Below the pieces are notes generated by a model, which made no database searches, was not told where the DNA came from, and saw only the letters and a list, made by a program, of their open reading frames with translations. Positions 3,434-22,682 of a stretch of 23,131 nt of DNA are shown in pieces; position 1 is the first letter of the stretch; each line of letters begins with the position of its first letter. Made by a program: the position numbers and the translations under genes. Origin of the DNA: Amoeboradix gromovi (taxonomy: Eukaryota; Sanchytriomycota; Sanchytriomycetes; Sanchytriales; Sanchytriaceae). The DNA is taken from assembly GCA_018985225.1 (NCBI GenBank), contig JADGIF010000076.1, positions 1 through 23,131 on the forward strand, written 5' to 3'.

Positions 3434-4479
3434 ATGGATCCAACATTGAGAACTTTAATTGAATCTGATTATAAATGGATATTCTGTGGAGGAAAAGGGT
3501 AGTTTATGTTAATGTAGTGGGGTTGGAAAAACAACTACTTCTTGCTCATTGAGTGTAACTTTGGCGTTATCAGGAAAGAAGGTCTTACTGATTTCCACAG
3601 ATCCGGCACACAACTTGAGCGATGCATTCAATCAAAAGTTTGGACAAAACCCTTTGCCTGTAACTGGATTTGACAAGTTGGAGCCCATCGAAGGGCTAAA
3701 TAAGGACGGGAAAGTAGGCGGACTTAGCTGTATGGAGATAGATCCACAGTCTACTATGAACGACATGATAAAGGAGGAAGGTGCTAGCATGCTGAATGAC
3801 TTTGGCATGAACATTCCCGGGGTAGATGAGGCCATGGCATTTGCTGAAATTATGAAATTGGTTAAAGGAATGTCTTATGACTGCGTAGTATTCGGTATTA
3901 ATTGCTAATTTAGATACGGCTCCTACTGGACACACTCTTAGATTTTTGTCCTTTCCTAGCGTCATGGACAAGGCTTTAGACAAGATTCGCGAATTGGGTG
4001 GTAAGTTTGGCGCAATTATGCAGCAGATGTCATCAATGATGGGATCCACTACCTCTCAAGAACAGATGTTTTCTAAAATGGCAGAAACACAAACTACGAT
4101 CAAGCAAGTACAAGCTGAATTCACTAATCCTGAGAAATGTACTTTTGTTTGTATTTGCATTGCCGAATTTCTGTCTCTGTACGAGACTGAAAGAATGATT
4201 CAAGAATTAATGGGATACGATATCGATACTCACAACATTATAGTTAACCAGCTAATTTTTGATTCTCCAGACGTTAAAAATGTTAAACTTTTAAAAGTTC
4301 GTAGACAGATGCAGCAAAAGTATTTGTCTCAAATTCATGAATTGTATGAGGATTTCCATGTTGTTGAAATGCCGTTACTAACTAAAGAGGTGCGTGGACT
4401 AGAGCGTATTAAGTTGTTCGGATCGTGGCTGTTGCGCGGGTACCAAATCGAGGAAGATATGGATTCTGATTTCGAATAA
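3434..4479 (+). CDS. GET3: Get3/TRC40 ATPase for tail-anchored protein insertion
   Basis: The exons are 3434-3498, 3518-3894 and 3914-4479, giving 335 aa (yeast and human proteins are about 350). Get3 is the cytosolic ATPase that carries tail-anchored proteins to the ER receptor. Seen after splicing: P-loop GGKGGVGKT at 19-27, DPAHN at 50-54, switch [10 protein letters not shown] at 148-155, a Met-rich client-binding region at about 183-206 (MQQMSSMM), [22 protein letters not shown] at 225-246 and the VNQL nucleotide-base segment at 258-261. Both 19-nt introns cut invariant motifs (P-loop and switch II), so splicing is essential. Odd: the zinc-binding CxxC of eukaryotic Get3 is replaced by VKLL at 271-274. 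The start ATG gives a short N-terminus like that of yeast. The stop overlaps AATAAA, and the convergent SEL1L gene ends 27 nt away. Confidence 0.95.
3499..3517 (+). other. 19-nt spliceosomal intron (GET3 intron 1)
   Basis: The sequence is GTAGTTTATGTTAATGTAG. It contains an in-frame stop, and its removal joins GGA AAA GG to T GGG GTT, restoring GGKGGVGKT. The insertion point is phase 2. TTAAT followed by GTAG gives a branch-like A only a few nucleotides from the 3' splice site. Confidence 0.9.
3895..3913 (+). other. 19-nt spliceosomal intron (GET3 intron 2)
   Basis: The sequence is GTATTAATTGCTAATTTAG. Its removal joins TTC G to AT ACG GCT CCT, restoring the switch II motif FDTAPTGHT. The insertion point is phase 1. 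It has a clear CTAAT branch-like site followed by TTAG. Confidence 0.92.
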
Positions 4480-4506
4480 ACTTTAAAAGTATTTAATTTA
4501 TTAGCT
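4480..4506. terminator. Convergent 3'-end region, GET3/SEL1L
   Basis: Only 27 nt separate the two stop codons. AATAAA lies on the plus strand overlapping the GET3 stop (GAATAAAC), and AATAAA lies on the minus strand just after the SEL1L stop. The two transcripts must overlap if cleavage occurs at a normal distance from these signals. Confidence 0.55.
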
Positions 4507-6777
4507 TCATTCTGAGTCCCTGTCCCTTAGAGTAGAGTCTTCATCTTCCTTCCTGTGTTCAACAGTTGGTTCCTGTTTCAGTGGCACATTTTCCTGTGCC
4601 GTGGGCTCATCTATGGGCTGAGTCACTTGTTGATTTATTCTATCACGTTGCTGTTGTCTCATTTGCTCTAATAATGCGTTCAATCTAGGATTTGGTTGAT
4701 TTGTTACAGCTGGTATTTGAACAGGCCTCTGTCTTTCATTTCTTCGTCTTAAATAGAACAAATATCCGCTAACTATGATCAATGCAAAGAAAACCAAGTT
4801 ATCCATTCCAGATGAGGCAGATGACTCGAAGAATAAGTGCTCAAGCATTGAAAAGTAATCATTTCCGTTTCTCTTCCAAGTCGGAGTTCTCATATCGTCT
4901 ATTTCCCAGTCAATATCCGTAGCCATTGGAGTAGCTTGCTCAGCAATAATTGGCTCACTTTTAGAACCCCTTGATTCTGAGTCACTTGATGAATAGAAAT
5001 AATCCTTGAATTCACTCCAACTCCATCTTAATCTTAGTTTAAGGTTGCTTAAGCTAACAACTAACCATGTATCCTTGTTGTATTCATACGCTAGATCATA
5101 AAACCGCATGGCCATGTTATAATCAACCTGAACAACTCCAATGCCATTCTCATACATGTATCCCAGGTTCCACGCAGCATATGAGCTTCTGTCGTCTGAT
5201 GCCGCCTTGTAGTACTCGAATGCCTGCTTTTTGTCCTCTTCAACTCCAAATCCAATATAATGGTAATCACCAGCCTTAATCCTGGCATCTATGTTACCTT
5301 GATTAGATGCCCTATGAAACTGAGTAAGCGCCAGTTTCCTTAGCTCAATTGGTAATGAAATGCTAGAGTTAGAAGTAACTATTTTGTTGTCAATTAGATA
5401 AGCTAAATTAACTTGAGCTAGTTCTATGCCCATTTCCGACGCAAACAGGTAATTAATCAACGAATTTTCAACATCGTTGTTGGCTAGTGACTCATAAGCA
5501 TGCACTGTATATGGATAAAACCACTCATAACCAGTTTCTGCTACCTTTTTGAATAAACTTACAGCTTGCTTGCAGTCCGAAGTAACACCCAGTCCATTTT
5601 CAAGCATATCTCCGAGTAAATACGACGCTTGAACGTTGCCTAGATGGGACGCTATATTTAAGTAGTTGCTACTTGCAATATAGTCCTTGTTATCTTTGTA
5701 ATACTTACCCAGTCTAGTTAAACCGTATGCATCCTGTCTCTCTGCAGCCTTTGTGTACATTGTTATTGCCTTCTTCATGTTTACAGCAGTATGTAACCCA
5801 AACTCATACATGTAGCCCAAACCTGAGTATGCCATTCCGTCACCAATATCAGCACTTTTTTTGAACCATTCATATGCCTGGGCATTGTTCTTTGTGACAT
5901 ATTCGCCTCTCAAATACATTCTGCCCACCATTGATGCAGACTTACCACCAAATAGCTTGTCTTTTGTACGAGAGGATATGTCATCATCCTCATCTTGCGG
6001 CTTGTCGACTGCATCGGCTGCCTTTTTAAAGTACATAAATGCTATTTGATAGCTCTGCTTAAAGTTTTGCAATCCCTGATAAAAAACTTGACCCAAAAGA
6101 TATTGACTACTTATGTCGCCGGATTCTGCCAGCATCTTTGAATAATCTATAATATCCTCTTCCGATATACCGCTACTTTCATCCCCAAAAATACGATCAC
6201 TTGGGGTTGAATGACTAATATGACCATATAAACCACCGTCTGCTGCTTCTAAATGGACAGGAAGAGGAGGTAATAAAGTGCCCAAAGGAGGACCATTAGT
6301 GCGATGCTTAACAACAATTTTAGCAGCCGCCTTGTAGTACTGCAATGACTTAGAACACGATTCTTTAAAACCTATCCCTTTCTTGTATCGATAGCCCATA
6401 GCCATTAGTGACGGTAGATGTCTGTCTCTAGAAGCTAGCGCCAGATGAATTAGGGATTGCTGAACTGAGTTTTCTGGTTGCGATATATTTGCTGATAAAA
6501 ACACACCTTTTACGAAATGGCCATAAGGATGACCGTCTTGAGCTAACAGCTCTGCGTACTCGAGAGATTTTTTATAATCGTGTACCTTGAATAGGTAATG
6601 ATCAAGTATGGTTTCTAAACTTTTGACGTGTTTGAAGCTGCCGTAGATATGTTGTAAATCCGAAATAGCTTTGTCAGGATCTTTAGATAATAGGTCTTTA
6701 GACTTTTCATATTCCAGTTCGGCCTGATTTTCAAGAGCTATCAAGCCGGTTGCAAATATAAGACAAACGAGCAACAT
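4507..6777 (-). CDS. SEL1L/Hrd3-like ERAD adaptor with Sel1 repeats
   Basis: This encodes 756 aa from an ATG that begins a hydrophobic signal peptide (MLLVCLIFATGLIAL). Most of the protein is Sel1-like repeats (helical pairs with A.Y.LG..Y..G.G....A..Y...A), for example QASYLLGDMLENGLGVTSDC, AYSGLGYMYEFGLH and AAWNLGYMYENGIGV. Near the C-terminus is one membrane segment (LVFFALIIVSGYLFYL, about 660-676), followed by RRR and a Q/E-rich tail of about 80 residues. This is the SEL1L/Hrd3 layout: a lumenal repeat domain, one TM, and partnership with the Hrd1 ubiquitin ligase in ER-associated degradation. The family assignment is strong; the Hrd3 role is inferred from architecture. Its ATG is 39 nt after the PMM stop, in a tight co-directional pair. 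Confidence 0.85.
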   Translation of the reverse strand: MLLVCLIFATGLIALENQAELEYEKSKDLLSKDPDKAISDLQHIYGSFKHVKSLETILDHYLFKVHDYKKSLEYAELLAQDGHPYGHFVKGVFLSANISQPENSVQQSLIHLALASRDRHLPSLMAMGYRYKKGIGFKESCSKSLQYYKAAAKIVVKHRTNGPPLGTLLPPLPVHLEAADGGLYGHISHSTPSDRIFGDESSGISEEDIIDYSKMLAESGDISSQYLLGQVFYQGLQNFKQSYQIAFMYFKKAADAVDKPQDEDDDISSRTKDKLFGGKSASMVGRMYLRGEYVTKNNAQAYEWFKKSADIGDGMAYSGLGYMYEFGLHTAVNMKKAITMYTKAAERQDAYGLTRLGKYYKDNKDYIASSNYLNIASHLGNVQASYLLGDMLENGLGVTSDCKQAVSLFKKVAETGYEWFYPYTVHAYESLANNDVENSLINYLFASEMGIELAQVNLAYLIDNKIVTSNSSISLPIELRKLALTQFHRASNQGNIDARIKAGDYHYIGFGVEEDKKQAFEYYKAASDDRSSYAAWNLGYMYENGIGVVQVDYNMAMRFYDLAYEYNKDTWLVVSLSNLKLRLRWSWSEFKDYFYSSSDSESRGSKSEPIIAEQATPMATDIDWEIDDMRTPTWKRNGNDYFSMLEHLFFESSASSGMDNLVFFALIIVSGYLFYLRRRNERQRPVQIPAVTNQPNPRLNALLEQMRQQQRDRINQQVTQPIDEPTAQENVPLKQEPTVEHRKEDEDSTLRDRDSE

Positions 6778-6816
6778 TTTTATGTTTCAAAATTATTAAA
6801 CGCACTTTATTAAAAA

Positions 6817-7579
6817 CTATAATTCAAACAATTCTTTCAAATATTTCATTGTTACATCAGGTGAAGTCACAGAATAGCCTTTGACTCTACTATCTGTAAA
6901 GATTTCATAGTCATTACCACCTATCTGGGTTTTATCTCCAAAAAAGTAAATACGCTTGAATCCTTCATTTTCAACATGGCGTAAGCAATAAGTCTTGTCC
7001 CATCTGAGTTAGAATTAAAAGATACCCAATCGGAAATACATCAAATGAAATTTGGCCACCAATACTATAAGTCAATCCATAATCTGAGAATTTCTCTTTC
7101 AACTTGTTCACAAACGTTTGACGAATCTTGTGAACATCGTCATACTTTTGAAATTCAAGTCTTTCCGGATAGGAGCAATTTCTGCCAATTGGACTAACAT
7201 TAATCATCCCGTTTCTAAATTCGATAAAAGTCCCTCTCTTCTGCGGAATGTCCAAGTTAGCTATATAGTTTAAAATGAAATTGGCGAGCTTTTGGTATCT
7301 TTCTTCACCGATGTAATTTATAAATGATTGAGAAGCCAACTGCTTTCCGTTTTTGTACGCTGTTAATCCGTTTTCGGCAAAGCAATAATCAAATCTGTCC
7401 AATACATCTTCGCCTATCTGTTCAATCTGTTTTGGTAAATCTGAACCACCTACAAATCCAACTGTGGCTTTGGTTCGTAATCTTTCTAAAAGTTCAAGGA
7501 TTTCTGGAGATGCAGATTTTCTAGCTGGAGTCAATGTACCATCAACATCAAATAATACCAAATCGTCATGTCTAGCCAT
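6817..7579 (-). CDS. Phosphomannomutase
   Basis: The exons are 7579-7026 and 7003-6817 on the minus strand, giving 246 aa, the usual length for eukaryotic PMM. It converts mannose-6-phosphate to mannose-1-phosphate for GDP-mannose, dolichol-linked glycans and GPI anchors, in the cytosol. Seen: the HAD nucleophile motif DVDGT at 11-15, FVGGSD, FAENGL, the substrate-binding stretch [26 protein letters not shown] and, after the intron, [26 protein letters not shown] and GYSV. The start at 7579 ([15 protein letters not shown]) matches family N-termini. The frame is open further upstream without support. Without splicing the frame ends early at 6971. The residue before GWDK is Ile where Asp or Glu is usual. 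Confidence 0.95.
7004..7025 (-). other. 22-nt spliceosomal intron (PMM)
   Basis: On the minus strand it begins GTATCTTTTAATT and ends CTAACTCAG. Removing it joins ATT GG to A TGG GAC, giving FPIGWDK as in the family, and recovers the C-terminal 61 residues. It is the only intron here longer than 19 nt and has CTAAC and CAG in place of CTAAT and TAG. Confidence 0.9.
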
Positions 7580-8275
7580 TTTAAAATCAGGTGTTTTGTA
7601 AATTATTTTAACGCTAAAAAATTTAATCAAGTAGAAAATTTGATATAACACTGGACTCTTGCTGCGAAAATTAATTATTCTAGTTTTTACACAGCCAAAC
7701 AGTTAGATGAAATATTGTTCACTTCATTGAAAGATGGATTTTCTAGAAAATTGAGAATTTCCAAAAAGAAATTAATTCCCCACTACTGTGATAGCTCACG
7801 CTTTCACTTACCTGAGGCGGATTGAATAGGGATACAGCTATTCCCGATAAATGATTTATTCAACAAAACTCATCATCTGTCATTTCTTATCTGCAAGTCA
7901 GGTCTTTTATAAATTGCTAGAAAACATTCAGTCTCTTGAAGCTCTGATTCATTATTTTTAAAGTCTTGGAGCTCGGTTTATAGTGACTGTTCAGGCGTCA
8001 TAATAGTACGTTAAGAAGATGTTAATACCTTGATGCAATATTAAATAGATGAGAATTTAACTGTTTACTGAAAATATTGCCAAATTTTGCACAAACTCAG
8101 CTTAGCTATCACTTTCATTATCTTTATCAAGGATGAATTGATAACATAAAGCTGTAGGATCTAACTAATTGTTGCAAGTACCAGGTCTAGTTTTATATTT
8201 GATGTCTAATTGGCCAAGCATTAGATATCTATAAAAATGTTTTGCATATCCCGTTGTTTCTAGTTGTGTTGAAAT
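7580..8275. other. Divergent spacer with coding-like relics
   Basis: This 696-bp gap between PMM and AsnRS must hold both promoters. On the plus strand it has an ATG-less open frame at about 7645-7827 (containing [19 protein letters not shown]) and a short ATG frame at about 7850-7960 (ending KLLENIQSLEALIHYF). The composition is protein-like, but the pieces are in different frames and lack flanking exons. I cannot name a family; they may be fossils or chance. Confidence 0.3.
8144..8208 (+). repeat. Decayed copy of the repeat right end
   Basis: TCTAGTTTTATATTTGATGTC at 8186-8206 resembles the repeat terminus at 19361-19387 with one deleted T. Upstream, ATAAAGCTG and a TTGTT.C stretch align with the same body segment at about 19320-19355. 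This suggests an old, diverged right end 70 bp before AsnRS. Confidence 0.4.
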
Positions 8276-9499
8276 ATGCTTGTCAACAAATCAACTGTCT
8301 TTAACGGTTGGATTAGAGCCATAAGAAAAGGTAAAACCAAAATGTTTATTGAGGTTAGCAATGGGGTTAAAGAATACCAGGTAATTTCTAAACCTCTAAC
8401 TGGATTATCCATTGGATCCAGCGTACAATGTAGGGGCACAATTAAGACATTTAAAGATGTAACTGAAATTCATGCCGATAGTGTTACTACGATCGGCAAA
8501 TGCGATCCTGATAAATATCCTCTTCAGGGCAAACGGCATAAATTTGAATTTCTTAGAAAGTATCCACATTTAGCATCTAGACGAAAGTTTCAAAATTCCA
8601 TATTTCTCTTTCGTGATTTTCTTCAATTCGAGATTCACAAATACTTCCGAGACTTGTACTTCGTAAATGTAAACACTCCGTTACTAACAACAAATGACTG
8701 TGAAGGAGGTGGGTCGACGTTAGCCATCAAATCCCAAATATTTAACCAACCATGTCATCTTACTGTAAGTGCCCAACTGCATTTAGAAGCGTTAAATTCC
8801 GGAATTGAAAACGTTTATACTTTAAGCCCTTGTTTCCGTGCCGAGAAAACATTATCCAGTAAGCATTTGGCAGAATTTTACATGTTAGAAGCGGAATTAG
8901 GATTTTTGTCTGACCTAAATAAACTAATTGATTTTGTCGAGCGTCTTTTCTTACATTTAGTTGATATATCAGTATCATTTCTGCTTCCAAAATTGTCAAA
9001 CTTGCAAAAGGAGATAGATATTGATCTAAATGAGCTAGAAAAGTTGCACAAAAGTCTAGCAATACAACGAATCACTTTCGATGACGCCTTTAAACTACTG
9101 TCAAACTCGAGTGCAACATTTGAAATTCCGCTAAAATATGGTAATTTAGCAAGTGAGCATGAACATTATCTTGTTAATCATTTCCGATCCCCAATATTTG
9201 TTACTCATTATCCTAGCAGTAGCAAACCTTTTTATATGTCAAGCAAAGACGGAAAAGCAGACTGTTTTGATTTTCTTGTTCCAAAAGTAGGTGAATTAAT
9301 TGGCGGATCACTTCGCTCTAATGAACTGCTTAATGTGCCTGATAACCTAGAATGGTACAACGATATTAGAAGATATGGGAGCATACCACATGGTGGATTT
9401 GGACTGGGATTTGAACGATTTATTATGTACATGCTACAATTGGATTCTATAAGAGATACAATACCATTTCCGAGATACTACAAGAATATTAAATGTTAA
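8276..9499 (+). CDS. Asparaginyl-tRNA synthetase, organellar type
   Basis: This encodes 407 aa, a class II enzyme charging tRNA-Asn. Seen: an anticodon-binding OB fold from residue 11 (GWIRAIRKGK), a motif 1 region at about 115-136, SAQLHLEAL at 165-173 typical of AsnRS and not AspRS, motif 2 FRAEKTLSSKHLAEF at 187-201, and motif 3 GGFGLGFERF at 373-382. The length and lack of the N-terminal extension of cytosolic eukaryotic AsnRS match the mitochondrial (NARS2/Slm5) or bacterial kind. However, the OB fold starts almost at the first Met, leaving little room for a cleavable presequence, so location is uncertain. The final stop is followed by AATAAA, and the reductase gene ends 17 nt away on the other strand. 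Confidence 0.92.
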   Translation: MLVNKSTVFNGWIRAIRKGKTKMFIEVSNGVKEYQVISKPLTGLSIGSSVQCRGTIKTFKDVTEIHADSVTTIGKCDPDKYPLQGKRHKFEFLRKYPHLASRRKFQNSIFLFRDFLQFEIHKYFRDLYFVNVNTPLLTTNDCEGGGSTLAIKSQIFNQPCHLTVSAQLHLEALNSGIENVYTLSPCFRAEKTLSSKHLAEFYMLEAELGFLSDLNKLIDFVERLFLHLVDISVSFLLPKLSNLQKEIDIDLNELEKLHKSLAIQRITFDDAFKLLSNSSATFEIPLKYGNLASEHEHYLVNHFRSPIFVTHYPSSSKPFYMSSKDGKADCFDFLVPKVGELIGGSLRSNELLNVPDNLEWYNDIRRYGSIPHGGFGLGFERFIMYMLQLDSIRDTIPFPRYYKNIKC

Positions 9500-9516
9500 A
9501 TAAACATCATTCTTTA
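9500..9516. terminator. Convergent 3'-end region, AsnRS/P450 reductase
   Basis: Seventeen nt separate the stop codons. AATAAA occurs on the plus strand straight after the AsnRS stop. On the minus strand AATAAA lies a few bases past the reductase stop and therefore close to the AsnRS 3' end. Confidence 0.55.
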
Positions 9517-11596
9517 TTATCTCCACACATCAAGTAGTATTCTGGATTCATTTTTCATTCTTGCAAGTCTCTTGAGACTCGTGATCTCTTCCATAACAGA
9601 TTCAACCTGTCTAGCCATTACAGTGTCTCCACATATAAAAACTAATCCTCTATCAACTACTTGATCTACAAAGTCATGATATTCTGCAAGCCTATGTTGC
9701 ACATAACACTTTTTATCCGTTACTCTTGAATAGGCTGTATCATAAACATTTATAAGTCCTTCTTGTACACCGGCACTGAATTCCTCGACGTAAATAGCTT
9801 CTTTTGGAGTTCTGCATCCAAAGAGAAATAAAATTCCATTATCAACTAAAGCTTGTTGTGGTATTGCGTTCTCTTGGTCTATACAATTATATACTACTGA
9901 ATAACAAGATTCAGACAAAGTTGCTGTTTTGCATGATTTAGTAGTGCCATATCTCTCAGAACGATGTTTTAGCTCTCTTAAAAATCCTCTAAATGGCGCA
10001 ACCCCGGTTCCTACATTAGCAATAAACACCTGGGCCAACAAAAAGCAATGGTAATGGATGTTTGGGCACCTTGAAGTTAGATTTTCGGGTAAATACAGGC
10101 ACTAAAAGTGGAGTAGTGGCGTTTCCATAGCTTTTGCCGGATTTTTCTAAAAATTCCCAGCAACGCGTGAAATAGCCTGTACACAATCCAGTGTTATGTT
10201 TGGTTTTGTATTCTGTTACTCTGGTTCCCTCAATATCTTTTGGCTGCGTTATATCGTAGTCTAAAGTAACGGCACATATTGATATTCCGTCTCCTAATCT
10301 TTCGCTGCTACAAATACTATACCACCTCGCGCTTATCCTTGCCATGTATAGCAATATACATTCTAGCACAGCGGTATTACCTGGTATTTTAAAAAGTTTT
10401 AAAAAGTCTATAAGGGCAATTTTATTGTGAAATATTTGATCTTTATAAAAAACTTCATCTATTACACTGCAATAACCTAGTGCTTTTAATTTCTCAACTA
10501 GCAATAATGGTACACATACGTTCAGATCAACATAGAATGTCAGAAAAGTTCTAAGAGTTCTGTATTCTTCTTTCTCCCATTGTATAACCTTATCCAGCTT
10601 AATTTCAGATGAAAAGGCATTACCCTCTACTAAGAGATCGCAATCTAAGATTGTAGGTCCAGAAATAACAGTCATTTGACGATTTTCATCTTTTTCAAAT
10701 AGATTAAAATAGCGGGCAACTTCTTCCACTTTGCTAGTTGCATTTTGAGGATATATGGCAACATGGTCGCCATACTCCCAATTTATGGCTGGATCTTGCT
10801 TGTTGACTTCAAATTCCATATGCCAGCAAATACGATCAGTTTTAAATATTTTATTGATTGACTTTACTTTCATTAATTTCGGATAATTGCGATCAACTAT
10901 AACACTATGAACTGGGAAGCCAAAGGATATATTGCTAAAAGTTGAATCATATATTATGTTGATTTTTTTAACAGATTTTAGCATAGGGTAGCCAATTTGT
11001 TTACCGAAATGGACCAAAAAAATTTCAAATTGTGATGAAAAGTTGTAAAATTCCATTTCAAGCGATTTTGTCTCATCCAATTCCTTATAGAGATTCGGAG
11101 ATCCAACCAGTTTCCTTAATAGCTTAGCAGCTTGATTAAATTGTGTATAAGTGGAAGAACCTAGGCCTAAAATGACCTTGTCAACGTCTGAAAATATATT
11201 TTTACCATTTAATTTCAACGATTTGAAAAATAGAATACCGTCATCAGAAGGATCGCCATCTCCAAAAGTGCTGACAACGAATACTACCAGCTTACAAGGC
11301 AAGTTAACCTGCAAATCAACTTTGCCAACGTTAATAATTTGGCATGTCATGTTATAAGAAACTATCAAATCATGAATCTTATTGGAGTAGTATAGAGCAT
11401 TTCCTGTCTGAGTGGAATACAAAATCGTTATGTCACACTTTGCAACTTTTACAACCTCTTCAACCTCTAATGATTCCTGAAATTTCAATTGCTTTACCAT
11501 CAATTCCTTCATAAACTCATCATCCTGATCTTTTTTGATGAACCTGTAGTATATGACTGCAATAATTCCACATGTTAAAACAATTTCCAAAATCAT
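9517..11596 (-). CDS. NADPH-cytochrome P450 reductase
   Basis: The exons are 11596-10030 and 10010-9517 on the minus strand, giving 686 aa, as usual for the family. It passes electrons from NADPH through FAD and FMN to microsomal P450s, and also serves sterol synthesis. Seen: an N-terminal membrane anchor (ILEIVLTCGIIAVIYYRFI), FMN-domain motifs STQTGNA at 61-67, STFGDGDPSDD at 109-119 and GLGSSTYTQFN at 144-154, FAD motif ARWYSICSS at 423-431, NADPH motif GPGTGVAPFRGF from 521, FGCRTPKEAIY, CGD..MARQVE and the C-terminal aromatic in LLDVWR. The anchor and the DVW end favour P450 reductase over Tah18 or methionine synthase reductase. The GPGTGVAP motif exists only after removing the 19-nt intron. 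The FMN loop reads QTGNA where QTGTA is common. Confidence 0.93.
10011..10029 (-). other. 19-nt spliceosomal intron (P450 reductase)
   Basis: On the minus strand it reads GTGTTTATTGCTAATGTAG. Removal joins CCA G to GA ACC GGG, restoring GPGTGVAPF. It has CTAAT before GTAG. The 5' end is GTG where the other five introns have GTA. Confidence 0.92.
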
Positions 11597-11641
11597 TGTT
11601 TTCTCCTAAATTCGACTATTAGCGTATCCAGAAATATGTAA

Positions 11642-13019: not shown

Positions 13020-13034
13020 ATAAGAAGTTTCTAT
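13020..13034. terminator. Convergent 3'-end region, BET3/RBM25-like
   Basis: Fifteen nt separate the stop codons. The minus-strand gene's stop overlaps AATAAA (AAT AAA TAA). BET3 has only the near-match AAATAAG. Confidence 0.5.
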
Positions 13035-14192
13035 TTATTTATTGCTTTTTAACGACATAATTCTAAATATATCCTGCACAAACTTGATTCGATCATTCTC
13101 TTTGAAATATGTGAGCATTTCATATATATAGATAGGAGATTCTCCGTCCGCCAGCGCTTTAATTAGCTTATTAGTTAGTTTGTCCTCGTCATGTATGCCT
13201 GCTTTTCTAGAATTCATTTGAATCAGAGGCCTGAGCAGTGCAAGTGTTCGTTCTACTGGCTTGAAGCTCAACGACGGAATCTCCATAATTTCCTTTGGAA
13301 TTTTGCTGGCGGATAAGTCTGGTTTGATCTTTTTGTGAGGAACCGGATCTTTATCAACGAAAGGCCGCTTTCTATTATTTATGATCTCATTCTCTGCTTG
13401 TATATAGTTCCAGCCATCCTGCTTTTCTTCTTGAACTCTAAAGGGTCTTCTTTCTTTCAAATACTTAGTCCTGTGAGTATAGTACATGTGACTTGACTCT
13501 TCCTTCCAGTTTTCTAGCTCCTTTAATAGCTGGTTCTTACCCACTCTTTTATAATCCACAATCTTGGTGTAGCGGTTGTTCTCTTTTGCCATATCTTTTT
13601 CCCTCTGTTCCCATTGCTTCAATTCGAGTCTAAATTTAGAAATTAAATCTTCTTTTTCGGTAAAATGGGTACCTTTGTTTCGTGCCATTCCCGCCTTTCT
13701 ACGTTGTTCATGGATTTGTCGAACTGATTGCTCAGTTTTCTCCTTCTCTACATTCATTAATTGATATGACATAGGTTTCTCATCAAGTAACTCCTCAACA
13801 ATAGCTGATACTTTGGCTATAAAAGGTGCATCAAATTGCGCATTGCCGTCTTTAGGGTTGTCTTGCAACCATCTGTCCAGCTGCTTATTAGTCTTTTCGT
13901 CTATTCTCACCGCCAACTTTCCTTTTATACCTAGTGGTGAAATTATTTCGTAGTTGTCCAGTATTCTTTTACATCTTAACACGGATATAGGATCTAAGAA
14001 ATGGACAAATCCAAAAGATCTCATGGATCCCATGTTATCTCTTATCCGCTTCCATTGTCTTAAGTTACCAGCAGCATGCAGTAACTTAATCATATGGTCA
14101 TCTGCTAGTCCATTAGGGATGTTCCCTATAAATACTATTATTGCGGTAGTGTCACTCTTGCGTACAAGCACATCCTCATCATCTATTTGCAT
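13035..14192 (-). CDS. RBM25-like splicing factor (RRM, charged helix region)
   Basis: This encodes 385 aa. An RRM lies at about 17-98, with RNP2 IIVFIGNIP and RNP1-like SFGFVHF, followed by the KLAVRIDEKTNKQLDRWL segment seen after the RRM of RBM25. A long charged helical region follows (about 140-260, EKEKTEQSVRQIHEQRRK, LELKQWEQREKDM), then a basic KRPF/KKIKP stretch. The C-terminal 60 residues (DKLTNKLIKALADGESPIYIYEML) could be a degenerate PWI domain, but the P-W-I signature is not visible. RBM25/Snu71 proteins work with U1 snRNP in 5' splice-site choice, relevant in a genome with 19-nt introns. The protein is much shorter than human RBM25. Assignment rests on the RRM and its downstream segment. 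Confidence 0.75.
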   Translation of the reverse strand: MQIDDEDVLVRKSDTTAIIVFIGNIPNGLADDHMIKLLHAAGNLRQWKRIRDNMGSMRSFGFVHFLDPISVLRCKRILDNYEIISPLGIKGKLAVRIDEKTNKQLDRWLQDNPKDGNAQFDAPFIAKVSAIVEELLDEKPMSYQLMNVEKEKTEQSVRQIHEQRRKAGMARNKGTHFTEKEDLISKFRLELKQWEQREKDMAKENNRYTKIVDYKRVGKNQLLKELENWKEESSHMYYTHRTKYLKERRPFRVQEEKQDGWNYIQAENEIINNRKRPFVDKDPVPHKKIKPDLSASKIPKEIMEIPSLSFKPVERTLALLRPLIQMNSRKAGIHDEDKLTNKLIKALADGESPIYIYEMLTYFKENDRIKFVQDIFRIMSLKSNK

Positions 14193-14257
14193 TTTATACT
14201 GTCACAAGGGTCAAGTAAACTATTAATATATTTATTCTCAGAGTACTTAACACTAGA

Positions 14258-15928
14258 TCAGTCTAAATCCATAGCATCCTCCTTAATTCGTTTGAAATCA
14301 AAAAGCTCTTTTTTATAATATGCTTGGAATAGGCTTGCAGCTGCCATTGTTGCAGACTCAACTGCACCAACAATTGTTCCATCGAACAAGCAATCACTGG
14401 CTAGCATTAGCGGAAACTTTAATAGTCCTGTTTTAATCTCTTCGGCTACATCTGGATCAGTGACAAACTTGCCACCCCTGATATATTTACAATTGCCAAA
14501 ATTAGAACAAATCATATCCTGTGCCCTTAAATTGAAGCAAGATAGTCTTTCAGTTAATTTAGCATGTCTCTTAAGCCCGTCCATCTCCAAAATAGATTCC
14601 GCACCTTTTCCTACACTAAAACTAGTCAAAACGCTGGCAGCTTCTTTAATATGAGTGAAAAAGAAGAATAATCCCCGCTCAGGATTTAGTAGCGCTTCGC
14701 TGGGTGGTGCAAGCACATAGAAGTATTCGTTCGAATTATCGAACTCCTTAAATACGATACTAGCAGTTTCCAAGCATGTATTATAAGCCCTGCCGAATGA
14801 ATTCCTAATTTTGCTTTTGATTTGATTTGCAAACAAGTATTTCCACTGGTAAGGTGGAGTACAGACAATCCCAGCATTCGCCAGTACATTTATAAATTTA
14901 TGCTTGTTTGTAAATTCAACATTAGCTTTGTCAGTTGAGCCGGAGAATCCACCAACGGATACTTGTTCAATTTCAAGATCGTTTAGACAGTATATGCCAG
15001 AATCATAATCCTTTAAGAGTAGATCCGACAATGACTCTGATTCAGCATTTTTCAACTCCATTATATTAACAGAGTCATAAGTATTCGCCAGCAAATCATC
15101 AAATTTGAGAATTAACGAACTCATTTGCTGTGGAATAGCATACTTCTTGAAGCTATTGTGGGTAATATCTGGTAAATGGCATGGATATATAACATCAAAC
15201 GATCCATATCTATACTCTAGATCTGCAACAATAAGATTAATCAATTGCAACTGTGACTCGTTTTCTTTTTCAAGAATCGCCGAAAGCAATGATGCCACGG
15301 TGGATTTGTTAGATTTGGACCTGTCGATAAGCCTTAGTACATTAATAACAGTATTTACGGCAGCCATTACAGCGTTGGACGGGACTATAGAACCATCCAT
15401 GTTATATACAGCGCACTCCCAAACACAAGGAATCGGTTTAGGACACCATCCTAGCTGGTGAATCAGATGCTTTATTTTAGGGTTTTCAATGTCGTACAAA
15501 AATTGACAGCCATAATCTGGCTTGTAAGCTAAAGCGTCCTCGCCACGAAATGGAAGCTTCCCTCCCTTTAATCTACCACCTAAAGAGCTATCTGCCTCAC
15601 AAATTACAACGTAGGGATCTGGCAAAGAATAAGAATGATGAAGGTTACGAAGCTGTAAAGCTGAAATCATACCGCTAATGCCCCCTCCCAATATTGCAAA
15701 TATTGGGCTCTTAGAGTCATGAGTTTTTTGCTGACTTACAAATCCGAAATTGATTTCTCCACTCGCCACTAATTTTTGAAATGCTAGTTTACAATGAAAT
15801 TGATCTTTAGAACCTTTACAGGCATCTTCAAATGTAACGAACCTGTTAGATGAAGATAACTTGCGAATGCGGTTTACTTCCTCGCCAAAAATCTCTGCAT
15901 TTTCTATGTAGTGAAGCAGATTGTCCAT
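14258..15928 (-). CDS. FAD amine oxidase with SWIRM-like N-terminus (LSD1-like)
   Basis: This encodes 556 aa from the first ATG at 15928; the frame is open 15 nt further through a TTG. The N-terminal 62 residues resemble the end of a SWIRM domain (FVTFEDACKG, then AFQKLVASGEINFGF, matching the usual GYINFG ending). The FAD-binding Rossmann motif is ILGGGISGMISAL at 79-91 with the ribose-binding Glu at 111 (ICEADSSLGGRL). GLFFFFTHIKEAASVLTSFSVGKGAE is typical of LSD1/polyamine oxidases. The C-terminal FAD segment is ASDCLFDGTIVGAVESATMAA. SWIRM plus amine oxidase points to an LSD1-type histone lysine demethylase, but the sequence is divergent, the tower insertion is not evident, and polyamine oxidase activity cannot be excluded. 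It lies 65 nt upstream of the RBM25-like gene. AATAAA follows its stop. Confidence 0.72.
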   Translation of the reverse strand: MDNLLHYIENAEIFGEEVNRIRKLSSSNRFVTFEDACKGSKDQFHCKLAFQKLVASGEINFGFVSQQKTHDSKSPIFAILGGGISGMISALQLRNLHHSYSLPDPYVVICEADSSLGGRLKGGKLPFRGEDALAYKPDYGCQFLYDIENPKIKHLIHQLGWCPKPIPCVWECAVYNMDGSIVPSNAVMAAVNTVINVLRLIDRSKSNKSTVASLLSAILEKENESQLQLINLIVADLEYRYGSFDVIYPCHLPDITHNSFKKYAIPQQMSSLILKFDDLLANTYDSVNIMELKNAESESLSDLLLKDYDSGIYCLNDLEIEQVSVGGFSGSTDKANVEFTNKHKFINVLANAGIVCTPPYQWKYLFANQIKSKIRNSFGRAYNTCLETASIVFKEFDNSNEYFYVLAPPSEALLNPERGLFFFFTHIKEAASVLTSFSVGKGAESILEMDGLKRHAKLTERLSCFNLRAQDMICSNFGNCKYIRGGKFVTDPDVAEEIKTGLLKFPLMLASDCLFDGTIVGAVESATMAAASLFQAYYKKELFDFKRIKEDAMDLD

Positions 15929-16631
15929 ATGATAAAGATACAAGGAGTCGGTTACTTCAGTTCAAAGTAACAATAATTTTTGGAATGCATTTCACGGAAA
16001 ACGAACAAAATAGGCTGTTCTTCTATGTTGGAGATGGTTTATACCTTACTGGAAGTCCTTATTTGGGACAAATCCAGAATTTCCACGTAGAGACCGAAAG
16101 CTAGTAACTCTGTTACCGTGCTTGCTCGCGCTTCTCCTACCCTGAGATGAGGTTGAATATGGATGCATGTTTATCAAGCGTATGTATCTCGCTAACACGT
16201 TGTCTTTATCTACTAGTAAGTTACCATGGCCAATATTCACACTAAGTGAGACTTACGGTTCCGATTGTATTTTTGTAATGATTTGGAGAGATCTCTCACT
16301 GATAAAAATGAATACCGAGCGTTTACTGAGTTACAAACCACTCGCAAGAATAATTGTTGAAAGCATAAAACAATGCAATCAAGATAAAGTTTTATTCTCT
16401 TATACTAAGTACTGTAAACTTATGAAAACGGTGAGATATAGCGGCATTGGACAAGTTACTTAACATCACTCTGGATGCAATCCATTTTTATTTCATTTGA
16501 AGTAATAGAAAAAAAGGTGGATTCATTCAGTTCGCTTGATCGTCATAAATGGTCTGTTCAATTAAATTGATGACTTGCTCTTCCATAAACAAATTTACTA
16601 TTTTTGAAACGACATAAAATCCCTATCAAAA
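15929..16631 (+). other. Divergent spacer with coding-like plus-strand ORFs
   Basis: This 703-bp gap between the amine oxidase and NIPA must hold both promoters. It also has 15985-16104 (ATG, 39 aa, MHFTENEQNRLFFYVGDGLY...; the frame is open upstream) and 16167-16463 (ATG, 98 aa, with LLSYKPLARIIVESIKQCNQ and KYCKLMKTVRYSG). The two are in different frames and separated by stops. Their composition looks like real protein, more so than chance AT-rich ORFs, but I recognise no family. Either a relic of one gene or a small unknown gene at 16167-16463. Confidence 0.35.
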
Positions 16632-17552
16632 ATGTCTGGTAAAGTTATTGGACTATCCTTGGCAGTGTCTTCTAGTATACTTATAGGCTCTTCATTTATA
16701 ATAACCAAAAGAGGGCTTGAGCACCCGAATTATTTGCAAAGCAAAACTTATTGGCTGGGAATGTCCTGTATGGCACTAGGAGAAGTACTAAATTTTTTAG
16801 CGTATTCATTTACCAGCGCAATAACTGTTACGCCTTTAGGTGCTTTAAGCGTTGTTTTTGGTAACATTCTAGCGTTTATATTTCTAAAGGAAAATATGTC
16901 AAAAGTGGGATGGCTTGGCGTAATTTTATGTTTACTGGGTGCAGTACTGGTCATACTTAATTCTCCTGAAGAAGAACCTATTAATTCCGTTACCGAAATG
17001 CTAAATTTTGCGGTTCAGCCTGGATTTCTTGCTTATTTAGCAGTTGTACTCTCTGCAACCTATTTCTTAATGTACAAAGTGGAGCATATTGGGAAAAAAC
17101 GTTTGTTTATATATCTGACTATTTGCTCCGCAGTAGGCAGCATTACTGTCATTGCTTGTAAAGCATTTGGAATCGCAATTAAGTTGACCATTGAAGGTAA
17201 CAATCAATTAGCACAGCCGAGTACGTGGGCTTTTCTTGTAATAATGATACTATGCATTACTACCCAAATGACCTATTTCAACAAGGCTCTAGACGGATTT
17301 GCTAGTAACGTGGTGACCCCAATTTATTATTGTGGTTTTACTTCTCTTACTATTGTAGCCAACGTTATACTTTTTAAAGATAGAAATTCTGCGAGTCCAA
17401 AGGACGTATTAGGCGTGTTGATAGGATTTATTATCTCATTTATAGGAGTTTATGTAATAAATGATCAATCAAAGAAGCCGGCGAAAGGTTATGATGAGTT
17501 GACAGAAGACCAAGAAGAATCAAATCGGGGTGTAGAAATGCAAAAGCTTTAA
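16632..17552 (+). CDS. NIPA-family magnesium transporter
   Basis: This encodes 306 aa, complete and single-exon. NIPA proteins (DMT superfamily) move Mg2+ across plasma or endosomal membranes. Seen: about nine hydrophobic segments, the first being IGLSLAVSSSILIGSSFIITKRGL, then family signatures YWLGMSCMALGEVLNFLAYS, VTPLGALSVVFGNILA, FLKE and LGVILCLLGAVLVILNSPEE, and later TQMTYFNKALDGFASNVVTPIYY and GFIISFIGVYVIN. A short acidic hydrophilic tail follows (YDELTEDQEE). Ion specificity is from the family. The ATG at 16632 has an A-rich context (AAAAATGTC). The PDE gene ends 18 nt away on the other strand. Confidence 0.93.
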   Translation: MSGKVIGLSLAVSSSILIGSSFIITKRGLEHPNYLQSKTYWLGMSCMALGEVLNFLAYSFTSAITVTPLGALSVVFGNILAFIFLKENMSKVGWLGVILCLLGAVLVILNSPEEEPINSVTEMLNFAVQPGFLAYLAVVLSATYFLMYKVEHIGKKRLFIYLTICSAVGSITVIACKAFGIAIKLTIEGNNQLAQPSTWAFLVIMILCITTQMTYFNKALDGFASNVVTPIYYCGFTSLTIVANVILFKDRNSASPKDVLGVLIGFIISFIGVYVINDQSKKPAKGYDELTEDQEESNRGVEMQKL

Positions 17553-17570
17553 TAGTAAATCTGTTTATTC
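17553..17570. terminator. Convergent 3'-end region, NIPA/PDE
   Basis: Eighteen nt separate the stop codons. AATAAA on the minus strand lies just past the PDE stop (AAGAATAAAC). I see no exact AATAAA for NIPA. Confidence 0.45.
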
Positions 17571-18537
17571 TTAGTACCGACTTGTTGCCAATGCGTATTT
17601 TGTTTTTAAGAATGATTGTAGTTCGGGTAGCGCTCTGACGCAGTAATCTACCTTTGCATTTACAAATGTATTTAAAAAAAAGAGTTGTGACTTGGCAGTC
17701 TCTGTAAAACTAGATTGAGGCTGAAGTTTAAGGGATCGTAGATTCGTTACCTCCTCAAACGACAACGGCCATTTAGCGGCTAGTTTGGATTCCATAACTT
17801 GCTCTTCATATATAGCATCGGCCCACTTCTTTGCAATATCATCATTCCTGAATTCATTACTCAAGTCTGCCATACTAAGCAACACTTTAGAGATCTAAAT
17901 TAATGGTAAATACAGTAATGTTAGATAGTGGTACATGTCGAATCTCTTCAGCTAGCTTGTGTGCATTAGCCAAATCAGTAACAAGAATAATTTCGGTAAT
18001 CTTTTGATATATTTCTATTTTCTTGTCATTTGGAATAGTTAAAAAGTCGTACTCAGGGTCAGATAATATCAACAGGGTGAGAGAGATATGCATACGCTCT
18101 AACGTAGACTGAAACCCATATAAAAGACCTAGCTTATTCATTGTGGCGTTCAAGAATTTATTGCTGACACCAGGATGACCAAGATCGTGGCAAAAGGCAC
18201 ACATCAATAAGGTTATTACTTCTAAATTGGAAAATTGAGTGGAATTGACTTTGGTAATTAATATATAGGCAAACTGCTGAACAGACACCGCATGTGCAAG
18301 ATTATGGAACTGGTTATCCAAGTAGTTGACAGCAACCACCTGTACAAACTTTTTCAGAATTTCAGAGTTTACTTGCTCACACTGAAATTCCATGAACATA
18401 GAAAAAGAAAAATCAATGAGCTGGGAGCTGTTGAACGACATAAGATCAATATCTATGTTTTGAATATCTACAACATTAAACTCTTTAATAGTTTGGAACT
18501 CAGACGGTTTCTTAAAAGTTAAAGGCAATAAATCCAT
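17571..18537 (-). CDS. Class I cyclic-nucleotide phosphodiesterase
   Basis: The exons are 18537-17914 and 17894-17571 on the minus strand, giving 315 aa, essentially only the catalytic domain. It hydrolyses cAMP and/or cGMP. Metal-site motifs are visible in order: HNLAHA (HxxxH), FCHDLGHPGVSNKF (HD motif and the class I HPG.SN block), LERMH, ILVTDLANAH, and after the intron the last metal Asp in MADLSNEF followed by KKWADAIYEE. The usual ENHH is RMH here. The first ATG in frame is at 18537; the frame continues upstream to about 18660 with only GTG available, so a further 5' exon cannot be excluded. No regulatory domain or membrane segment is seen. It may work on the same Ras/cAMP axis as the RasGEF gene to its right. 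Confidence 0.9.
17895..17913 (-). other. 19-nt spliceosomal intron (PDE)
   Basis: On the minus strand it reads GTATTTACCATTAATTTAG. Removal joins AAC ATT ACT to ATC TCT AAA in frame (phase 0) and links the HD domain to the MADLSNEF metal ligand. It ends TTAATTTAG. Confidence 0.9.
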
Positions 18538-18677
18538 CGCTAAAATCTTTTTGGCCAGTTTCAAAAACAATTTCAATTGGAGGAAATATATAATTTGATT
18601 TCTGAATTGCACAGTAAATCTAATGGCAAGCCATCTTGGCGAATAATGGACACGAGACTAATGAATTATACGAGTTA

Positions 18678-18908
18678 ATGAATACTTTTTCTGAGTACCT
18701 TGCTGCTTTAAAAGAATTCGTAGTACTAATGAATGCCCGTCTTATGGAAACTGAACTGATACATTCATTTCGACCTAATTTAGGCATTAATAGAGATAAA
18801 ATGCTCTCACGTACTGCCAAAAATCATGTTCAATGGTTTTGTAAACTGATAAATGAAATCGAGTATTTGCTGCTGATGCGTAAATATCATCTGCGACACC
18901 AAATATAA
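18678..18908 (+). pseudogene. Unknown helical ORF cut off by a repeat element
   Basis: A 76-codon frame from ATG 18678, open upstream to about 18630 without ATG, looks strongly coding (FSEYLAALKEFVVLMNARLM, HVQWFCKLINEIEYLLLMRK). Its last four residues and stop (R-H-Q-I-stop) are read from the terminal repeat sequence beginning at about 18893, so the natural 3' end is missing. I do not recognise the family. It is either a gene truncated by insertion or a fossil. It is the sequence just upstream of PDE, in the opposite direction. Confidence 0.45.
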
Positions 18909-19383
18909 AAACTAGACTACCTCGTTTTTAAAGAAGGTGCACCGTACGGAGGAAATGCTATCATTAATAAAAGATCTTCTATTATGCCAATTTTCTTTCA
19001 TTAATTGTATTCCCCTCTTCAAAATAAAACTAGATATGAGGTCTATGAGCATCTAAGCAAAAGGTGCATTTTCATAGACGGTACTCTTTTCTAGAATCAT
19101 TTTGTAATACTATACTAACATCATTACTCTTATCTATTTCTTTGAAGTGTAATAGTGATATTTTATTTGAAATAAGGATTGGATGAAAGAGTAAGAGAAT
19201 AGCTGTACAAAATATTTATTTTTGATATTTCGATACAAAAAGTTATTTATTTTCCTTTTATACTCGTCAACTCCGCAACTTGCTGAATGTCCACTCGCCT
19301 CTTAAATCAATAAGATTAATAAAGCTGAAATAATGTTCCAAGTTGTTACAGAAAGTTAGTCCAGTTTTTATATTTGATGTCCC
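18893..19383 (+). mobile_element. About 490-bp element with inverted termini
   Basis: The left end at 18893 (GCGACACCAAATATAAAAAC) and the right end at about 19361-19383 (reverse complement GGGACATCAAATATAAAAAC) form terminal inverted repeats of about 28 bp with 4-5 mismatches. Inside, the two halves differ: the left body matches the window start and the right body matches the window end. On the minus strand a frame with one stop (YENAPFA stop, then IQLMKENWHNRRSFINDSIS) reaches the left end and may be the tail of an element protein. I see no matching target-site duplication (flanks TATCATCT and AAATGTTT), so it could be a decayed or rearranged copy. Non-autonomous DNA-transposon-like; the superfamily is not assigned. 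Confidence 0.6.
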
Positions 19384-19405
19384 AAATGTTTATTTTTGAA
19401 AATAC
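19241..19405 (+). repeat. Right-end repeat, inverted copy of 22968-23131
   Basis: About 165 bp are about 96% identical by eye to the reverse complement of 22968-23131. The identity continues some 20 bp beyond the shared GGGACATC terminus (TGTTTATTTTTGAAAATA), so the homology unit is larger than the terminal repeat shared with the window start. The two copies flank the RasGEF gene in inverted orientation. Confidence 0.9.
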
Positions 19406-19555
19406 AACGAAAAGAGGTGACACCATTAAACTTTTGAAATCGAAAACAGTGACTCATGTAATCAACTAGTCATGGGTACCCATACGATGATGTACCTACG
19501 GCTTAGCTTAAATTTGGAAACTAGAGAAGCAATTCTAACAAACATTTAGTTGTCA

Positions 19556-19798
19556 TCAGTTTGCTATTACACGAAAGAAGCAAGCGAACATGCTGTTGGG
19601 CCACAAATGATGAACCTGACGATAGTCATACACAAATATTGCCAGTGTGTCTGAGACTCTTAAGCAATCACAACACCACCCTGCTCCAAGAGGGTTGTGA
19701 ATGCATTTAGCCTGAGCTTCAAGGCATTGGATGTCAGTTAACAAATGATAAGACTCTGCTTGGCAGAGATTAAATGATAGTAAATCTATTTCGCCCAA
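19556..19798 (-). CDS. Small hypothetical ORF, Cys-rich
   Basis: This 80-aa frame starts at an ATG (MGEIDLLSFNLCQAESY...) and contains six Cys within about 35 residues (LCQ, IQCLEAQAKC, GWCCDC), plus HHLWPNSMFACFF. No family is recognised. It lies between the repeat and the RasGEF gene, whose 3' end is 109 nt away on the same strand. Coding status is unproven; it may be another fossil. The rest of 19406-19906 shows nothing I can name. Confidence 0.25.
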   Translation of the reverse strand: MGEIDLLSFNLCQAESYHLLTDIQCLEAQAKCIHNPLGAGWCCDCLRVSDTLAIFVYDYRQVHHLWPNSMFACFFRVIAN

Positions 19799-19906
19799 TT
19801 TCTAGATGACGAGATAAATTTTACATAAGTAATGTCAGTCAGTCTAGCTTTTGCAATAGCTGCACCAATTGAAATATATATATTTATTCTCAACATGTGT
19901 TAGCCC

Positions 19907-22682
19907 TTAAAACAAGTTAGAGTTGAAAGACTTTCTTGATAAATTGTAAATTTGATCAGAATTCAATATTTTGGTGGTGCTGATATAGTGCTTAAACAGC
20001 ACCATCTCGTTATCAATTGCATAAGTTACTTTTCTTGCTTGAAACTTTTCTAGTTCTTCCAACTTCAACCTAAACATTGTGAGTTTAGAAAAGTTTATTA
20101 GTTCATGCATTTTTTTAGGATTACCATCATTCAAAAAAACCAAATCTTTTAAAAACAGCCCTAGAAATGGTAAAAAAAGTTCGTCATTCTTTAATTTAGT
20201 TTGGTATATCTCCCTATATGCTTTGTAGTTTCCATCCATATTCATAATCTGCTCAATTTCTTCTAGCTTTTGTTTTTTTGCTGGCTTGATTTGTTCCCAA
20301 CTGGACTTACATCTGGATACAGCAGCTGAATTCAAAGAAAGGATTAAAGCCATTAATTGGTTATAGTTTCCCAGCTGCTTCAATTCAGCAGCCACATCAA
20401 TAAACAACTCCAGCTTTTTTGTTCGGTATGTATCAGATGTTTCCAACAATATTTCGGAAGACACCCAGTTTGTGGTCTATATAAGTATAAACTACGTTAT
20501 TGAAACTATTAATAGAAGCCAACAAGTTTTCACAAATCTCACTGTTGTCCTCTTCAGGACTCCAAAGCTGCAAAAGCATTTCTAATGGCCGCAATTTTTG
20601 AAGTCTCTCAAATTCAAGTTCAGTTAACGATTTGGATATTGTTTGAGAGTTGTATGCTAGTAAGAATTTATCTATCAGAACTTTCGGCGCCTTCTTATGT
20701 CTTTCTCTTTTGAGCTGATGAGTTGTTTCTTCTATTTTTGCTTGTATTAAACAACCGAATGAATCTAAAAGAGTTTTGAATTTCATGTTATTATTCAGAG
20801 AGACGTTGTCTTCCACAATAGCCAAAAACCCTTGCAAAGTAAGCTGCATTTCTGGAGATTGAAAGTCGATCCAGTAGTGTTCCAGCCAAAATGATACAGC
20901 CTTAATCATTCTGGTATGAAGATGAAGCCTAGTAAATTTTTCATCTTTGTCATCTACTTCTGAGTTCATCCTTTGAATTATCTTTTTTAACAGCGATTGA
21001 GAGTCTATAACATACCTATAACACATAAATATAGTTTTTAAAAAACTTTCGTCAGCTGGTCCAAACCGATCCGCTAATCTTTCAATCAGCTTGTCAATTG
21101 AAGCTGCAGCAATATCAAACTTCGATGTCTGACTATCGGTACCTTTCGAGTAATAGACTTGAGGATTCCCAAGGTCATCCCAGCTGTCTTGCCTCAGCAT
21201 TCCTAAATTAGATTCATCGTTCTTTACAGGGGCCCGTAAATCTGGAATTCTTGATATCTCATCTGCAATTTTCAGCATTGAAATTTCAGTGTTGGACTCA
21301 CTAGGCGATATGCTTCTCTCGTTTGAAAATATACCAGAGGTGTTTCGAGAAATAAAACTACTCATGTCTTTAGCCTGTTTTTTGATCTCAGCCTTTTTAG
21401 GCTCAGGCAAGACATCAGCCATTTCAATCACTCTGTAAAGCTCCTCTAAAAATTCTTCTCCTTCTCCATTAAATGAGGTTATTGAGAAATTTGACTCATT
21501 TATTTCACGATGCTGTTCTGAGACGATAATCTTATCTTTTGAAGGACTAAGTTCCTTGTCGCTCTTTAGCAAATCTTGTAATCTATTTATCAGATCTTCA
21601 TCAATCTCCAAAAATTCGGTGCTTTTTGTCTGAGAATTTACAGTCCTTAAAGATTTTTTTGCAGTCACTTTTCTGCTTATACTTCTTTTTGCAGTTAAAA
21701 CTGTAAAAAAATTGACTGCTAACTGTGTGTCAGCTCTTGGAGCAGCTGCTACAGTATTTCCTATTGCAACCTTTTTAAATGATGAATACTTGCTCAGATT
21801 TTTAATAATCTGATCAAGCTCATCCTCTATGTTGGTGTTGACTTTTTGTGAATAAAATTTAAAAGATTTATCCAGTGTAAGTTTTAGCACCCTGAGATCA
21901 AACGTAGGCATTATTTCCAATAACAACAGGTTCATGCAGGAAGAATTAATAGAGCTAACCCACGCCATCATTTGAGCCTTAGATATACATTTAAACGTTA
22001 CAATATCGTTTCCTGCAAAAAGGTCAAAATTATAATCCATGGCAGATTTTTCACTTACTAGCGCCATAGCATTCTTATTTAATGTGTAAACAATTTTGTC
22101 TAATTCAGAATTTCCAGTAGTAACAATGATGTTAAAGGCTACCAGCTCTACTATACGACGTAAAAACGGAGATTCCTTGGATATCTGTACCTCCAGATAG
22201 CCCTTAAATGGGGGGACTTTAAGTCTTTTGATGATTTCTTCCGCATCTATAGGTGATGGAGGATCTTCAATTTCTACTTGTTCGCTAAATAGGGATGAAA
22301 ATTCTAGTATAGATTTTCTTCTTTCGGAGGGGACAGGAACAGGCTCGACCTGAATTCCGCTGTTGCTTCTAGATGCAGTACCAAAGTTCTTTTTCTTGGG
22401 CTTTGACACGGTTTTAATTTCAATCGTCTTAGATTTCCTTCTTGCACTATCATTCTTAGCATATACTATATATTCAGCCCCTGGCTCTAATACGCCAACA
22501 CCTTGTTTGTCTAATTCTAAAACTGCATTAGATTTTGTATCAATTAGTGTGACATCTTTTTCCTTAAACTTATAACTTACTGCAAAGACAGATCCACCTT
22601 GGTAGTACGTGCCTAATACTCTAGCTGGTGGAAGTAATGCTGCCATCCTATGGTCATAATTTTGCGTGCTGAGTCCTGACAT
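19907..22682 (-). CDS. Ras guanine-nucleotide exchange factor (PH-like, REM, CDC25)
   Basis: The exons are 22682-20496 and 20476-19907 on the minus strand, giving 918 aa. It loads GTP on Ras-family GTPases. In order: an N-terminal segment (1-75) of beta-rich character; a basic Ser-rich linker; a PH-like domain at about 158-250 ending with the conserved Trp (MMAWVSSINSS); a low-complexity region; a REM/RasGEF-N domain at about 526-630 (LIERLADRFGPADESFLKTIFMCYRY); and a CDC25 catalytic domain from about 680 (LTELEFERLQKLRPLEML, NTTNWVSSEIL, KKLELFIDVAAELKQLGNYN, NSAAVSRCKSSWE, PFLGLFLKDLVFLNDGNP). The last motifs match the Ras-GEF core closely. Without intron removal the NWVSSEIL helix is destroyed. 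AATAAA lies about 30 nt past the stop. The gene is bracketed by inverted repeat copies. Confidence 0.93.
20477..20495 (-). other. 19-nt spliceosomal intron (RasGEF)
   Basis: On the minus strand it reads GTAGTTTATACTTATATAG. Removal (phase 0) joins TTC AAT AAC to ACC ACA AAC TGG, giving FNNTTNWVSSEIL as expected for a CDC25 domain. The branch-like motif is weaker here (CTTAT), but the 5' half GTAGTTTAT is identical to GET3 intron 1. Confidence 0.92.

Follow-up and report, generated by a model that had tools for sequence, protein, structure and literature searches.

Probable spliceosomal introns of 19 to 22 nucleotides in the genes of a sanchytrid, Amoeboradix gromovi

Five genes in the window (the whole stretch of Amoeboradix gromovi DNA that we analyzed, 23,131 nt) are interrupted by very short segments that all begin with GT and end with AG (Table 1). 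The earlier note had placed six introns here, and all six are present at coordinates that we checked; five are exactly 19 nt long, as it held, and the sixth has 22 nt. Retention of any one of them leads to a frameshift or a stop codon, while their removal restores conserved motifs and raises domain scores. A further gene in the window, at 13035-14201, encodes an RRM protein; RBM25 was considered as its identity and rejected, as the PWI domain was not found.

Table 1. Short introns in the window and the genes that carry them
Feature	Coordinates	Strand	Length and sequence	Remarks
GET3/ASNA1 gene	3432..4479	+		3 exons; 5' limit approximate
Intron 1, GET3/ASNA1	3499..3517	+	19 nt, GTAGTTTATGTTAATGTAG	splits P-loop GGKG^GVGKTTT
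Intron 2, GET3/ASNA1	3895..3913	+	19 nt, GTATTAATTGCTAATTTAG	splits VVF^DTAPTGHT
Phosphomannomutase gene	6821..7579	-		2 exons
Phosphomannomutase intron	7004..7025	-	22 nt, GTATCTTTTAATTCTAACTCAG	splits FPIG^WDKTYCL
Diflavin (P450-reductase-like) reductase gene	9517..11600	-		2 exons; 5' limit approximate
NADPH-P450-reductase-like diflavin reductase intron	10011..10029	-	19 nt, GTGTTTATTGCTAATGTAG	splits VGPG^TGVAPFRG
3',5'-Cyclic nucleotide phosphodiesterase gene	17552..18540	-		2 exons; limits approximate
Cyclic-nucleotide phosphodiesterase intron	17895..17913	-	19 nt, GTATTTACCATTAATTTAG	immediately ahead of ADLSN motif
RasGEF gene	19907..22682	-		2 exons; 5' limit approximate
RasGEF intron	20477..20495	-	19 nt, GTAGTTTATACTTATATAG	splits SFNN^TTNWVSSEIL

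After splicing, GET3 regains its GGKGGVGKTTT motif and aligns with Schizosaccharomyces pombe Get3 over 321 residues (2.1e-106), free of gaps at both junctions. The conserved motifs of the diflavin reductase, the phosphodiesterase and the RasGEF protein are likewise restored, reading VGPGTGVAPFRG, ITISKVLLSMADLSN and SFNNTTNWVSSEIL, respectively. Removal of the introns raises the Pfam score of the phosphomannomutase domain from 256 to 359 bits, that of PDEase_I from 105 to 141 bits and that of the RasGEF domain from 134 to 164 bits; the NAD_binding_1 domain gains less (37 to 42 bits). On the strength of this restoration of frames and domains, we infer that the segments are removed by the spliceosome via a lariat.

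The introns follow the consensus GTANYT-N(3-6)-YTAAY-N-TAG. The earlier note had put a branch-like A about 5 to 6 nt from the 3' splice site; it is indeed that close, and exactly 5 nt follow it in each of the six window introns. Variation in length is confined to the spacer between the 5' splice site and the branch site, the branch A lying at nt 14 in 19-nt introns and at nt 15 to 17 in those of 20 to 22 nt. The YTAAY branch sequence is complementary to the GUAGUA box of U2, stands at a fixed distance and is recovered by a gene model that knows only the donor. A G at position +5 is usual, though not universal, in eukaryotic 5' splice sites. Most introns here, also among those recovered when no donor model was used, have T or C instead, although the U6 of this genome keeps ACAGAGA; our guess is that a shifted register between U6 and the 5' splice site (AGA with UYU) would explain the pyrimidine.

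Similar introns occur throughout the genome. We worked on 6.78 Mb of contigs, apparently all those of at least about 10 kb and about 65% of the presumed genome, and applied a gene model with coding statistics, length-free splice-site profiles and a flat intron-length prior of 10 to 200 nt to a sample of 257 kb that included 20 pieces of 10 kb taken mostly regardless of content. This model predicted 33 introns, 28 of them 19 to 22 nt long (16 of 19 nt, 6 of 20, 3 of 21 and 3 of 22) and 22 of these beyond the window; all 28 have GT-AG termini, which the model imposes. The other five predictions (58 to 170 nt) look like bridges from gene to gene or hold a short-intron alternative; the 58-nt one could also be read as a frame-equivalent intron of 25 nt. 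A possible 25-nt intron at locus L015 would have a 9-nt tail. Introns are few, at about 0.16 per kb of coding sequence in the sample. When the model was given the donor profile only, the short introns that it accepted ended in the same YTAAYNTAG, and with the acceptor profile only they mostly started with the same GTANYT, so that each half of the motif predicts the other. In ten proteins with introns outside the window, a known domain spans or abuts the junction in most cases; these domains include EF2, PEP carboxylase, PhoD-like phosphatase, DUF202, DCP2/NUDIX, the zinc-transporter dimer domain, TBC, adenylate kinase and DHHC.

Searches by motif led to the same result. Pairs of the two motif halves at a spacing of 19 to 22 nt number 28 in the 257 kb and 0 to 2 in five Markov-shuffled copies. 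A scan of the 6.78 Mb with GTATYTN{4,30}TAAYNTAG, which is blind to reading frame and thus meets the objection that frame-based detection overlooks multiples of three, yielded 193 matches; the reversed pattern yielded 105. Among the 100 matches listed, 45 are 19 nt long, against an expectation of about 2 for each length, followed by 15 of 20 nt, 5 of 21 and 3 of 22, with 18-nt matches at background level. Together with the scarcity of motif pairs in the shuffled copies, this excess at 19 nt excludes chance. The narrow peak near 19 nt that had been noticed in the window is therefore found genome-wide, yet it is not a single fixed length: it is a floor at 19 nt with a tail to 22. We also picked 20 matches of 19 to 20 nt and 11 control matches of 26 to 44 nt by motif alone; 19 of the former, and none of the controls, joined two open coding frames.

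We conclude, with a probability of about 93%, that these segments are genuine spliceosomal introns of the U2 type, that they belong to a nuclear genome and that their length has been reduced to a functional floor at 19 nt. It is unlikely that they are real introns whose length peak reflects the recent copying of one intron, in the manner of introners, rather than a functional floor. Such copying might leave traces like the identical 20-nt intron (GTATTTTGTAATTAACTTAG) that, with the 4 nt following it, occurs in two unrelated genes (L047 and L051), but the internal positions 7 to 10 are diverse among the 19-nt introns, and an empty class at 18 nt with decay from 20 to 22 nt is what a floor predicts. 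The intron shared by L047 and L051 may be due to chance or to recent intron copying. Two identical 19-nt introns also lie 1.2 kb apart (G000:C188:26755-26773 and G000:C188:27986-28004), probably through tandem gene duplication.

Even less credit is due to two further explanations. Introns could be imitated by indels from sequencing or assembly, or by the frameshifts of pseudogenes, in an assembly made in single-cell mode from error-prone amplified DNA (PMC8371127), but such accidents would hardly share the GTANYT...YTAAYNTAG consensus and the 19-nt length, exceed shuffled sequence in motif pairs, restore the frame at nearly every motif-picked site and leave protein conservation on either side of the breaks. 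Lengths well under the usual spliceosomal minimum might instead suggest that the ribosome bypasses the segments in an mRNA that retains them, or that they are cut out by a HAC1/XBP1-type or tRNA-type endonuclease; this is just as improbable, given the GT-AG ends, a branch consensus that pairs with the genome's own U2, a spread of 19 to 22 nt in which only the 5' spacer varies, and the presence of U2, U6, Prp8 and U1-70K.

The introns are unevenly placed within genes. Of the 28 short introns predicted by the gene model, 23 fall within the 3' half of the coding sequence (P = 0.0009), a bias that may be somewhat smaller, as reading from stop to stop slightly overstates upstream exons. Three additional matches to the motif that have coding surroundings are likewise at 3' ends, and among the motif-picked loci the downstream exon is closed and the upstream frame open over 800 nt in 12 cases, against 1 of the reverse kind (P = 0.003). 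Other intron-poor genomes show the reverse, a 5' bias; the introns of Stentor, and those of many other eukaryotes, are biased to the 5' end of genes (PMC9505925).

The earlier note had held that the gene content does not look like that of a ciliate or a nucleomorph, and the wider genome bears this out, with 6.78 Mb of contigs, an EF1A gene with the opisthokont insertion and genes for mitochondrial proteins. The insertion was recognized by eye, and the best structural matches of EF1A are yeast and animal proteins; GET3 is closest to that of fission yeast, and genes for a mitochondrial EF-Tu and a SURF1-like protein lie outside the window. As sources of this DNA, mikrocytids were rejected on these features of EF1A, Paramicrosporidium on its GC content of 47% and Rozella allomycis on its far higher intron density. 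The GC content is 36.19% (200 kb), and the published A. gromovi assembly has 36.27% GC, a size of 10.5 Mb and an N50 of 13,376 (PMC8371127). The minus strand of locus L018 carries a gene for phosphoenolpyruvate carboxylase (PEPcase, E 1.5e-122) with a 19-nt intron inside FHGRGGS, at 5061 of the reverse strand. Fungi would, to our knowledge, not be expected to have this enzyme; its intron points to a gene of the nuclear genome rather than to contamination from bacteria, and it is possible that the gene came by horizontal transfer. The window also contains dispersed repeats of about 113 and 164 nt (1-113, 18892-19001, 19241-19404 and 22969-23131) that are 91 to 96% alike and share inverted ends of about 30 nt (TAGTYYAGTTTTTATATTTGRTGTCCCA). 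Two of them flank a unit of about 500 nt that resembles a short DNA transposon with inverted repeats. The repeat recurs many times on other contigs, frequently at their ends, and therefore probably breaks the assembly.

An inventory of the spliceosome in the searched contigs found a canonical U2 snRNA (102 bits, with the GUAGUA branch-recognition box), a canonical U6 snRNA (65 bits, with ACAGAGA) and genes for Prp8 and U1-70K. The 6.78 Mb searched, about 65% of the presumed genome, gave no Rfam match to U1 snRNA and no U1C, Slu7 or Prp18. Two candidates for U1, chosen by the pattern of its 5' end and loop I, were rejected, since both lie within ordinary coding sequence and have no Rfam support. 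Because the search was limited to contigs of at least about 10 kb, these absences are weak, the probability that two genes both fall in the remaining 35% of the genome being about 0.12. The detection of U1-70K at 41.6 bits indicates that short spliceosomal domains can be found in this way.

From the window alone, a spliceosome with altered geometry had been proposed, in which the 5' splice site, the branch site and the 3' splice site must be recognized together. The latter part stands, since the three signals lie so close that they are probably recognized as one unit. An altered machine is not borne out, as U2 and U6 are canonical and genes for Prp8 and U1-70K were found; nor need a new one be invoked, since comparable length peaks have arisen in other lineages at least three times. 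Altered geometry is thus possible, and the sole hint of altered machinery comes from the undetected Slu7 and Prp18.

How might such introns arise? We consider it most likely that in a reduced parasitic genome a deletion bias would have shortened introns, and that trimming would have stopped once the pairing of U6 with the 5' splice site and of U2 with the branch site left only about 3 unpaired nt between them. With U6 on nt 4 to 6 and U2 on about nt 10 to 15, about 3 nt would be free in a 19-nt intron; the loss of one more seems not to be tolerated, so that introns of 18 nt would not be spliced and longer ones would be trimmed. An acceptor within reach of the branch point would need neither scanning for the 3' splice site nor Slu7 and Prp18, which serve distant acceptors. 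In yeast, these two proteins matter when the acceptor is at least 12 nt from the branch point (PMC11651659), and with a tail of 5 nt they should be dispensable. The lariat geometry, the origin by deletion bias and the dispensability of Slu7 and Prp18 are points that we infer.

Introns of this kind are already known from nucleomorphs, Stentor and mikrocytids. What this genome adds is a probable fungal host, a 3' bias and the union of few introns, a strong consensus and extreme shortness, which mikrocytids share. We found no report of such introns in a fungus in the open-access literature and no description of introns in the sanchytrid genome paper (PMC8371127), which makes this apparently the first fungal case among the few lineages whose introns are of minimum size. 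In a survey of 50 species, intron-poor lineages had a strong consensus and the lineages with the shortest introns a weak one, and the combination seen here occurred only in milder form (PMC2483917). At 19 to 22 nt, these introns are nearly as short as any known, and splicing would have reached its lower size limit independently in the fungal lineage. Tentatively, and with the odds somewhat against the whole of it, we suggest that a fungal nucleus independently evolved minimal splicing, with a 19-nt floor, a 14-nt lariat loop, an invariant tail of 5 nt and a pyrimidine instead of G at +5, that it lost Slu7 and Prp18 in convergence with Stentor, and that it preferentially retained introns toward the 3' ends of genes, contrary to other intron-poor genomes. 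The convergence in Slu7 and Prp18 is the most interesting testable point; together with Stentor, it suggests a rule by which a branch point 5 nt from the acceptor makes both proteins dispensable and leads to their loss. There is also a practical side. Sanchytrid genes were predicted with the ORF finder TransDecoder (PMC8371127), and because ORF-based calls truncate or split intron-bearing genes, the published gene content and losses may need revision.

The introns have the marks of the ultra-short class, namely, a narrow peak within 15 to 23 nt, few or no long introns and a 5-nt tail. The nucleomorphs of the chlorarachniophytes Bigelowiella natans and Lotharella oceanica have GT-AG introns with a mode of 19 nt (49 to 69%) and a range of about 18 to 23 nt (PMC4035089), and they resemble the present genome in modal length and termini. 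However, they are green-algal and intron-rich, and the 5' splice sites of B. natans are largely GT(A) with no branch-point signature (PMC2483917), whereas introns are sparse here and have a strong donor and branch consensus. The heterotrich Stentor coeruleus (15 to 16 nt) is alike in its branch A 5 nt from the end, the +5 U of its commonest intron (GUAAUUUUUAUAUAG), canonical U2 and U6 boxes and the failure of homology searches to detect Slu7 and Prp18 (PMC9505925); its introns differ in being 4 nt shorter, with a weak branch consensus and a bias to the 5' rather than the 3' end. The mikrocytids Mikrocytos mackini and Paramikrocytos canceri (16 to 17 nt) also have few, strongly conserved introns of very narrow length (PMC10245619), but they are Rhizaria, their introns have 16 nt against 19 here, and the metabolic-enzyme genes of M. 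mackini lack introns, which several such genes have here. The microsporidian Encephalitozoon cuniculi, a relative on the fungal side, combines few introns with a strong donor and branch consensus, but its introns average 35.8 nt (PMC2483917). Rozella allomycis has 2.53 introns per kb (PMC8476143), about 15-fold more than A. gromovi.
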